Shown one piece after another: positions 29,071 to 29,752 of a stretch of DNA of 64,000 nucleotides. The notes below the pieces were generated by a model that had not been told where the DNA came from, did no database searches, and worked only from the letters and a program-made list of their open reading frames with translations. Source of the DNA: Tateyamaria pelophila (GTDB lineage Bacteria; Pseudomonadota; Alphaproteobacteria; Rhodobacterales; Rhodobacteraceae); NCBI RefSeq assembly GCF_019966495.1, contig NZ_JAIMIA010000019.1:1-64000 (forward strand), in the 5' to 3' direction. Numbering within the stretch: position 1 is the stretch's first letter; each line of letters starts with the position of its first letter. The position numbers and the translations under genes were made by a program.

Positions 29071-29160
29071 ACGAAAAACGACGACCCCAGGGAGGAGGGG
29101 CCGCCGCTCTTTTGACATCATCACCAGATCAGGGAGGAGGAGGATCCGATAATGATGTGT
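29071..29160 (-). ncRNA. CcsR/cuckoo-type small RNA, third (distal) copy
   Basis: Two hairpins read on the minus strand. The 5' one (29158-29115) has a 16-bp stem with several G-U pairs and the loop CTCCTCCTCCCT. The 3' one (29108-29078) has a 12-bp stem and the loop TCCTCCCT, followed by TTTTT. Both loops expose the anti-Shine-Dalgarno string CCTCCTCCC or most of it. This layout, two hairpins each with that loop, is that of the alphaproteobacterial CcsR ('cuckoo') sRNAs. Confidence 0.8.
29074..29108 (-). terminator. Terminator of the DUF1127-CcsR transcript
   Basis: AGCGGCGGCCCC pairs with GGGGTCGTCGT (G-U pairs included) around the loop TCCTCCCT and runs into TTTTTCGTTT. The final CcsR hairpin thus doubles as an intrinsic terminator. 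Confidence 0.8.
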
Positions 29161-29189
29161 TCGGTGCACCCGGTCGGATGCGGTGTAAA

Positions 29190-29276
29190 AGGTGCGGCAC
29201 CTCCAGGGAGGAGGAGGCGCCGCAGTAGTGACATCGTTACCGGATCAGGGAGGAGGAAGACCCGTTGGCGATGTGT
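29190..29276 (-). ncRNA. CcsR/cuckoo-type small RNA, second copy
   Basis: The 5' hairpin (29274-29231) has ACATCG/CGATGT at the base, an internal mismatch and an upper stem, with loop TTCCTCCTCCCT. The 3' hairpin (29223-29194) has an 11-bp stem GCGGCGCCTCC / GGAGGTGCCGC with loop TCCTCCCT. The copy lies exactly 116 bp from its neighbours. A 35-nt linker shared with the next unit (GTTCGGTGCACCC...GCGGTGTAAAAGG on the plus strand) separates the units and is the likely processing zone. Confidence 0.8.
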
Positions 29277-29307
29277 TCGGTGCACCCATTCAGGTGCGGT
29301 GTAAAAG

Positions 29308-29385
29308 GTGCGGCGACGCCTGGGAGGAGGTAGGCGCCGCCGCCAATTTCAGATGTCCCAGGGAGGAGGAGAGGAACATCTGATC
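29308..29385 (-). ncRNA. CcsR/cuckoo-type small RNA, first (proximal) copy
   Basis: The 5' hairpin (29382-29350) has stem CAGATGTTCC / GGGACATCTG and a 13-nt loop with CCTCCTCCC. The 3' hairpin (29343-29310) has a 12-bp stem GCGGCGGCGCCT / AGGCGTCGCCGC with loop ACCTCCTCCC. It begins 12-15 bp after the stop codon of the DUF1127 gene, the position of ccsR1 behind ccaF1 in R. sphaeroides. Confidence 0.8.
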
Positions 29386-29396
29386 TCGTAAACTCT

Positions 29397-29630
29397 TTAG
29401 CTCGCGTCGACGCCGTAGGCGGCTTCCCAAGCGATGCTTGAAATCTCTGACGGGTGGATGCCCAAATCGGCGAGTTCCCGTCCGGACAAAGCGCGAAGCT
29501 CTGCCTTGGTCGTGTTGTAGATGCGGCGCATTGCGTGGCGCTCTGCGACGTTGTTCAAGAAGCGAGCGCCTGCGCCCAGCATACGCTCTACCAGATCATT
29601 CCGTCCGGCGATGTCATTGTAATAGGCCAT
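29397..29630 (-). CDS. ccaF1: DUF1127 small RNA-binding-type protein (CcaF1-like)
   Basis: A 77-residue basic protein ending in the DUF1127 domain: RIYNTTKAELRALSGRELAD, then LGIHPSEISSIAWEAAYG. In R. sphaeroides the DUF1127 protein CcaF1 binds RNA and affects maturation of the CcsR sRNAs encoded just downstream. The same arrangement is seen here. The start at 29630 (MAYYNDIAG) suits the family; the frame continues upstream for 33 codons, through the probable promoter. A CGGAG stretch lies 11-15 bases before the ATG. Confidence 0.85.
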   Translation of the reverse strand: MAYYNDIAGRNDLVERMLGAGARFLNNVAERHAMRRIYNTTKAELRALSGRELADLGIHPSEISSIAWEAAYGVDAS

Positions 29631-29727
29631 TTTCCGTGGCTCCGTTTTGTCTGTGTTGGGAGTAAGATAGTCAAATGCTGCGAGTGCACAATACCCAACC
29701 GAGTCAATGCTGCTATGCAGCAATTGC

Positions 29728-29752
29728 ATGGGGTGTTGGATGAAAAAACAAG
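29728..29752 (-). promoter_or_regulatory. ccaF1: RpoH-type (heat-shock) promoter of the DUF1127-CcsR operon
   Basis: On the minus strand CTTGTTT is followed after 12 bases by CCCCAT, close to the sigma-32 consensus CTTGAAA-N11-15-CCCCAT. Transcription would begin near 29720 and leave a leader of about 90 nt. The R. sphaeroides counterpart depends on RpoHI/RpoHII. Confidence 0.7.

Follow-up and report, generated by a model that had tools for sequence, protein, structure and literature searches.

The minus strand of the window (the whole 64-kb stretch of DNA that was analyzed) carries a DUF1127 gene preceded by a conserved upstream region and followed, 13 nt after its end and on the same strand, by an array of six hairpins. 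The features are given below in 5′ to 3′ order on the minus strand, with the evidence for each in brackets.

29705-29728, minus: composite LsrB/VtlR-like box TGCAATTGCTGCATAGCAGCATTG, which holds TGCA-N6-GCAT and the reverse complement of CAATGCNGCNATGCA
29686-29691, minus: putative −35-like element TTGTGC within the conserved ATTGTGCA-N3-GCAGCAT block (upstream alignment)
29664-29669, minus: putative −10-like element TATCTT, with a predicted transcription start near 29657 (upstream alignment)
29397-29630, minus: ccaF1-like gene, 77 aa, DUF1127 (PF06568, 33 bits, cut-off 23.3)
29349-29383, minus: hairpin 1 (unit 1), anti-Shine-Dalgarno loop (fold, motif, repeat, alignment)
29310-29343, minus: hairpin 2 (unit 1) (fold, motif, alignment; Rfam CcsR1 match 29305-29385)
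29275-29309, minus: linker 1, 35 nt, a candidate site of cleavage; it contains the U-rich ACCUUUUACACC and GCACCUGAAUGGGUGC, which forms a small hairpin
29231-29274, minus: hairpin 3 (unit 2) (fold, motif)
29193-29224, minus: hairpin 4 (unit 2) (fold, motif; Rfam CcsR1 match 29189-29272)
29159-29192, minus: linker 2, the second copy, 34 nt (sequence, repeat)
29115-29158, minus: hairpin 5 (unit 3) (repeat, fold, motif)
29075-29110, minus: hairpin 6 (unit 3), anti-Shine-Dalgarno loop and likely terminator, with a T tract at 29074-29078 (fold, motif, alignment; CcsR1 match 29073-29158)

The window contains six copies of the motif CCTCCTCCC, each of them on the minus strand (29361, 29322, 29248, 29206, 29132 and 29090); 0.47 occurrences are expected, and none of 100 shuffles reaches six. 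The minus-strand RNA of the array folds into six hairpins spanning 29075-29383, at −154 kcal/mol and with a z-score of −9.56 against shuffles. The motif lies wholly inside the loop of hairpins 1, 2, 3 and 5; in hairpins 4 and 6 its first two C are paired in the stem and the rest is in the loop. A preliminary description of this DNA had placed the motif, or most of it, in the loops of six minus-strand hairpins, and the motif positions and the fold confirm this, down to the qualifier. In 5′ to 3′ order, the loop-to-loop spacings are 39, 74, 42, 74 and 42, which is the alternation of 42 and 74, with 39 for one pair, that had been claimed. The claim of three two-hairpin units is likewise borne out by a 116-bp unit repeated at 81% identity (29087-29202 and 29203-29318) and by linkers of 35 and 34 nt as counted on the sequence. 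With a T tract (TTTTT) at its 3′ end, hairpin 6 is also the likely terminator of the operon; it was not listed by a consensus terminator scan. Each linker (29275-29309 and 29159-29192, minus) has a small extra hairpin, GCACC/GGGTGC and GCATCC/GGGTGC, in which a one-sided change keeps the pairing.

Assignment to the CcaF1-CcsR family

In E-value mode on the short stretch, the Rfam model CcsR1 (RF02791) matched all three two-hairpin units over model positions 1-83 of 83, at 29305-29385 (44.5 bits, E = 1.6e-9), 29189-29272 (25.0 bits, E = 0.001) and 29073-29158 (23.4 bits, E = 0.003). All three fall below the gathering score of 65.3 bits, and Rfam run at gathering scores gave no match in the window. 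The alpha-r14 model (RF02344) reached 48.1 bits on unit 1 and also 39 bits in the window, both under its gathering score of 58.8. Among six loci run at gathering scores, that of a Pseudorhodobacter relative (L111) clears the CcsR1 threshold at 77 bits, and one from Aliiroseovarius clears that of alpha-r14. The covariance-model search that the preliminary description had named as a check found full-length matches on three units, but all of them under the gathering score. Its assignment to the CcsR/CcaF1 type nevertheless holds up on these matches and the position of the DUF1127 gene, and its proposal of three sRNAs, a prediction from sequence alone, agrees with the three matches. Judged by the DUF1127 gene directly upstream and the three full-length CcsR1 matches, the locus is a CcaF1-CcsR (CIN1/cuckoo) locus, a kind already known. 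In Rhodobacter sphaeroides, ccaF1, which encodes a DUF1127 protein, is co-transcribed with CcsR1-4, and these are excised by RNase E with CcaF1, according to the available sections of PMC10253847, PMC8625941 and PMC8307010. Hairpin families with the same loop and varying hairpin number occur in Rhizobiales, as described in section 2.7, the part of PMC3927594 available to us.

Occurrence of the array among relatives

An initial family survey found the search pattern in 319 of 394 genomes; its control was void, as the pattern is its own reverse, and the survey served for finding loci only. The named relatives considered below are the best 80 of 307 by similarity to the window's DUF1127 protein, which is no random sample, and the best 14 of these 80 places are all Tateyamaria. 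For 77 of the best 80, the sequence extends 500 nt or more past the gene, and hairpins were counted there if they had a CTCCTCC loop and a 6-bp stem. The DUF1127 gene is directly followed by one or more of these hairpins in 73 of the 77; counts run from 0 to 16 and are most often six (17 of 77), all among the best 80 of 307. One metagenome-assembled Tateyamaria locus (L055) has the box and the DUF1127 gene and no CTCCTCC loop behind the gene.

A closer look was taken at 16 genomes, 15 picked for many pattern matches and one (G240) of the window's genus. From these, 15 arrays were read; G050 is uncounted, its stretch having been taken without its array. The named set includes three of these 15 arrays (L191 = L098, L197 = L108 and L198 = L071). 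A DUF1127 gene precedes all 15, and the longest array has 26 hairpins, packed into 1.2 kb behind one DUF1127 gene (L186, G165:C1:334000-338000) largely as three-hairpin repeats. Some arrays are built of near-identical tandem units, which suggests recent tandem duplication or amplification. Several identical units of about 89 bp are present at G366:C17:36115-36718 and of about 114 bp at G051:C4:691717-692438. The array in the window extends a known RNA family and is ordinary for its bacterial family.

A phmmer search with the window protein was run on 28 loci with hairpin pairs and missed DUF1127 at 7 of them, some of which are probably chance motifs; a profile was used afterwards. The locus also appears in records labelled Flavobacteriia (L083, JAHBAN010000007.1) and Nocardioides marinus (L106, JAHVJD010000007.1), labels that perhaps reflect contamination or mislabelling. 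The Flavobacteriia record is identical in length, range and match to a Roseobacter contig.

Divergence of the stems

Stem sequence diverges in these hairpins while pairing is preserved. With the window and 14 close relatives aligned, two-sided changes that keep the pair were found at 6 of 20 predicted pairs in the first unit and at 5 of 19 in the last. Stems of 8 bp or longer flank 470 of the 473 array loops in the named loci; the figure drops to 283 of 473 once the flanks are shuffled, and outside the arrays 23 of 51 copies of the motif in the named loci have such a stem. This survey located loops by their motif and is therefore no measure of loop constancy, which is visible in the alignments of relatives. 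All six standard pair types are represented at every one of stem levels 1 to 14 of the array loops. Taken together, the two-sided changes, the high stem frequency and the full set of pair types per level indicate that the stems drift while staying paired, in line with the earlier observation that the stems differ and still pair.

A conserved box upstream of the DUF1127 gene

An upstream block common to the window and 24 named relatives stands out from its surroundings in the alignment, and within it the ultraconserved box has the form TGCA-N6-GCAT-N-GC-N-GCATTG. Of the 80 named loci (best 80 of 307), 54 have the 15-base TGCATNGCNGCATTG within 400 nt upstream, 65 have its 12-base core there and 74 have TGCA-N6-GCAT. 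In the 870,554 strand-bases elsewhere in the named loci, the respective counts are 0, 0 and 12. The core also lies upstream of 9 of the 15 closely read arrays. A search blind to genes, with TGCA-N6-GCATNGCNGCATTG, found 60 places in 55 of 149 family genomes, against one for the reversed-pattern control. The absence of the core from 15 of the 80 named loci and 6 of the 15 arrays, together with the absence of the exact composite from 94 of the 149 genomes, counts against an LsrB-type reading of the promoter.

Thirty of the 60 places, those fetched as loci, were examined. A DUF1127 gene lies within 450 nt of the box at 26 of the 30, with hairpins at 25 of those 26, and at two more (L251 and L256) anti-Shine-Dalgarno loops lie downstream and no DUF1127 gene was found by profile. 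In the remaining two cases (L232 and L245), the box follows the stop codon of an LsrB-like gene by 13 and 4 nt, and a SorX-like sRNA motif comes 115-117 nt after the box. With 28 of 30 boxes before a DUF1127 gene or hairpins and 2 of 30 behind an LsrB-like gene, the examined boxes occur in only two kinds of place. The 15-mer is present in 45 of 181 genomes across the class, a count of presence alone, and it is for Rhodobacteraceae that the link of the box with DUF1127 genes and hairpins is shown. The window's genome has one other exact 15-mer (L127, C214:34825-34839), between two acetyltransferase-like frames and with the rest of the block missing.

The window's TGCAATTGCTGCAT is an exact TGCA-N6-GCAT at about −71 to −58 from the predicted start. 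In Sinorhizobium meliloti, LsrB activates NfeR1 from TGCA-N6-GCAT at −72 to −60, as stated in the accessible part of PMC10746234. Brucella VtlR activates three DUF1127 genes and AbcR2, with a reported motif CAATGCAGCCATGCA, according to an excerpt of PMC12595884; in reverse complement, the box agrees with this motif at all 13 fixed positions of the pattern, and the window copy does so at 13 of 15 positions. The VtlR consensus published for Agrobacterium and Brucella is GCAT-N3-TG-N3-T (PMC7486931, in the portion available), from which the window, reading GCAT-AGC-AG-CAT-T, departs by one fixed base (A for T). We predict that the box is an LsrB/VtlR-type activator site. The array itself is of a known kind, and the predicted link to a regulator through the promoter box is the new part.

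A candidate regulator and a SorX-like sRNA

Of 10 genomes examined at class level, 8 have a gene for a LysR-type protein next to trxB. The counterpart of this protein in the window's genome (C207:9139-10002) was found with E = 1.3e-85, against 2.2e-38 for the second-best LysR protein, and matches of similar strength were found in all 25 family genomes searched. The C207 protein shares 49% identity with the trxB-linked homologue over 294 residues, strongest in the helix-turn-helix, compared with 32% for the genome's second-best LysR protein. Its best solved chain is 9hh1 at 240.7 bits, with the next at 97.4; 9hh1 is the structure of Agrobacterium LsrB, a protein that the authors call unique to Rhizobiales in the available text of PMC11975290. 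By similarity and context, the C207 protein appears to be the one clear LsrB-lineage regulator. The aligned stretch of 9hh1 contains four cysteines, none of which is conserved in the C207 protein, and this makes redox sensing by the regulator doubtful. No trxB gene lies beside its gene within about 1.5 kb on each side, nor was the regulator gene found on either side of the genome's trxB.

Four nucleotides behind the regulator's stop codon lies TGCACGTGACGCAT, again a TGCA-N6-GCAT, and about 118 nt behind is a match to the Rfam family SorX with 55.0 bits, above the gathering score of 46.6 (L224 on C207, minus, 1298-1378). Across 21 family loci of the regulator gene, taken from the 25 genomes, the sRNA motif is present in 19 and the box in 12, and all 12 have both. 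The abcR genes of S. meliloti likewise adjoin lsrB (PMC7143759, from the part available). In many family loci, a CTTGA...CTA-type promoter-like stretch precedes the SorX-like sRNA. Loci of suhB (RF00519), tried as a route to a VtlR gene, had no LysR neighbor; the LysR pattern used was over-strict, so this result carries no evidential weight.

Proposed mechanism and alternatives

To the observed operon anatomy, loop and stem conservation, CcsR1 homology, conserved box and regulator gene, our main reading adds a series of steps, and we put its probability at about 0.66. The LsrB/VtlR-lineage LysR-type regulator encoded at C207:9139-10002 would bind the box at 29705-29728 and activate a sigma-70-like promoter with its start near 29657. 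A single transcript of about 590 nt would then carry ccaF1 and the six hairpins and end at hairpin 6. As reported for R. sphaeroides, RNase E with CcaF1 may cut the 3′ part at the U-rich linkers, releasing three two-hairpin sRNAs. Their CCUCCUCCC loops, held open by stems of free sequence, would act as mimics of the 16S rRNA 3′ end and pair with purine-rich Shine-Dalgarno sites, which would lower the translation of many mRNAs, and the number of hairpins would set the dose. We infer the pairing step by analogy with NfeR1, which has the same loops and silences mRNAs in a loop-dependent manner (PMC10746234, in the sections available), and not by a target search in the genome. The whole loop complement GGGAGGAGG lies before a start codon at 6 places in the genome versus 2 in the control; few of these resemble real starts, one of the six is itself a hairpin loop of this type read on the opposite strand, and the search with the full complement was too weak to name any target.

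The same operon and RNAs could instead be driven by RpoHI/RpoHII, with the box bound by another regulator or forming part of that promoter. An RpoHI/RpoHII promoter is published for R. sphaeroides ccaF1-CcsR1-4 (PMC10253847, with sigma control also in PMC8307010, both as far as the accessible text goes), and this counts against an LsrB-type reading of the promoter. We nonetheless think RpoH control in place of an LsrB-type regulator unlikely: the conserved block reads as a far-upstream dyad with TTGTGC-N16-TAT-like elements, and by a crude pattern a CTTGA-N11-18-CYA-type stretch lies within 300 nt upstream at only 1 of the 80 named loci, with only CTTGT, near 29752, in the window. RpoH and LsrB-type controls can also act together. 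A different alternative concerns the RNAs themselves, whose loops or stems might titrate an RNA-binding protein, CcaF1 or Hfq, and pair with no mRNA. CcaF1 binds RNA and affects the levels and processing of CcsR (PMC10253847), Hfq interacts with CcsR (PMC8307010; both statements from excerpts), and a hairpin number of 0 to 26 is one that a titration device could vary. Such a decoy would leave it unexplained that the loop is kept as an anti-Shine-Dalgarno sequence while the stems drift, and the available text of PMC10746234 has NfeR1 silencing mRNAs through the same loops; we regard the decoy as improbable.

The hairpins might also serve mainly to shield the 3′ end of the ccaF1 mRNA and to terminate transcription, the shared loop being a by-product of tandem duplication. 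The first loop begins 15-31 nt past the stop codon at 56 of the 74 loci with hairpins, TTTT follows the last hairpin at 60 of the 74, and near-identical units do build some arrays. Duplication leaves unexplained, however, how a constant loop persists amid diverged stems that still reach at least 8 bp at 470 of 473 loops (loops found by motif), and we consider this explanation very improbable. To a repeat element, a chance arrangement or a plus-strand feature, for which the tandem layout and nothing else speaks, we assign next to no probability. All five copies of CCTCCTCCCTG in the 5.65-Mb genome lie inside the hairpin array, which rejects a mobile repeat; the plus-strand RNA of the array hardly folds better than shuffles (z-score −1.12, with 12 of 100 shuffles folding as well), which rejects a plus-strand feature; and the 116-bp unit is not a multiple of 3, which rejects a coding repeat. 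The hairpins in relatives and the CcsR1 matches contradict all of these as well.

Comparison with known systems

In CcaF1-CcsR1-4 of R. sphaeroides as in the window, two-hairpin RNAs with CCUCCUCCC loops stand in tandem immediately after a DUF1127 gene and end in a terminator. R. sphaeroides has four units and the window three, whose CcsR1 scores stay below gathering. The R. sphaeroides promoter is reported to be RpoHI/HII-dependent, whereas the window has an LsrB-like box and no RpoH promoter recognized by a crude pattern; R. sphaeroides DNA entered this comparison through the Rfam model and papers only. The cuckoo RNA family and the CIN1 locus were reportedly described by Reinkensmeier and Giegerich in 2015. 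A short DUF1127 protein stands beside CcsR-like hairpins both there and here, and no difference separates the two, the family being known to us through the description in the available part of a citing paper (PMC10253847).

The alpha-r14/NfeR1 RNA of Sinorhizobium has identical CCUCCUCCC loops, and its TGCA-N6-GCAT lies at a similar distance from the start as in the window, in the text available to us. It differs in being a three-hairpin sRNA with its own promoter, with no DUF1127 gene mentioned in that text, and the window's score of 48.1 lies under the 58.8 of its model. The Rhizobiales LsrB/VtlR regulon (AbcR1, VrsA, NfeR1 and DUF1127 genes, in the excerpts consulted) has a LysR-type regulator of the same lineage, a similar box and the same types of target. 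In the window, both target types, the DUF1127 gene and the anti-Shine-Dalgarno sRNAs, are in one operon; its genome differs further in the SorX-like sRNA after the regulator gene, the absence of the 9hh1 cysteines from the aligned stretch and the lack of a trxB neighbor.

We consider it likely that Rhodobacteraceae CcaF1-CcsR arrays are direct targets of the LsrB/VtlR lineage, and that they represent an old alphaproteobacterial regulon (regulator, SorX/AbcR-like sRNA, DUF1127 and hairpins) outside the Rhizobiales, drawn together in one operon in which hairpin number, up to 26, would be a fast-evolving dose setting. The last two examined boxes, which lie behind LsrB-like genes, make this regulon more likely. 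If true, this would run counter to the published view of LsrB as a protein unique to Rhizobiales. Within a limited coverage of the literature, which may have missed such papers, we found none that joins LsrB or VtlR with CcsR or SorX; LsrB and CcaF1 occur together only in PMC12501420, where LsrB appears once, in the reference list, and neither CcsR nor related words appear in PMC12218461. The promoter evidence would join the oxidative-stress sRNAs of R. sphaeroides (CcsR and SorX) with the rhizobial LsrB/VtlR sRNA regulon, two literatures that hardly overlap, and it offers a testable regulator for operons that are widespread in a marine family which is itself abundant. With natural arrays reaching 26 units, one could also test how many ribosome-site mimics a cell needs.

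A second DUF1127 gene in the same genome

The window's genome contains a second DUF1127 gene (L154, C211:36000-39500, minus, about 1100-2040), behind which lies the related loop CCTCCTCCCG. Next come another DUF1127-like frame and a further two anti-Shine-Dalgarno hairpins, the final one of which, with the loop CACCTCCTCCCG, is likely a terminator. A divergent LysR gene stands beside this DUF1127 gene; its best NCBIfam match is YafC, under the cut-off.
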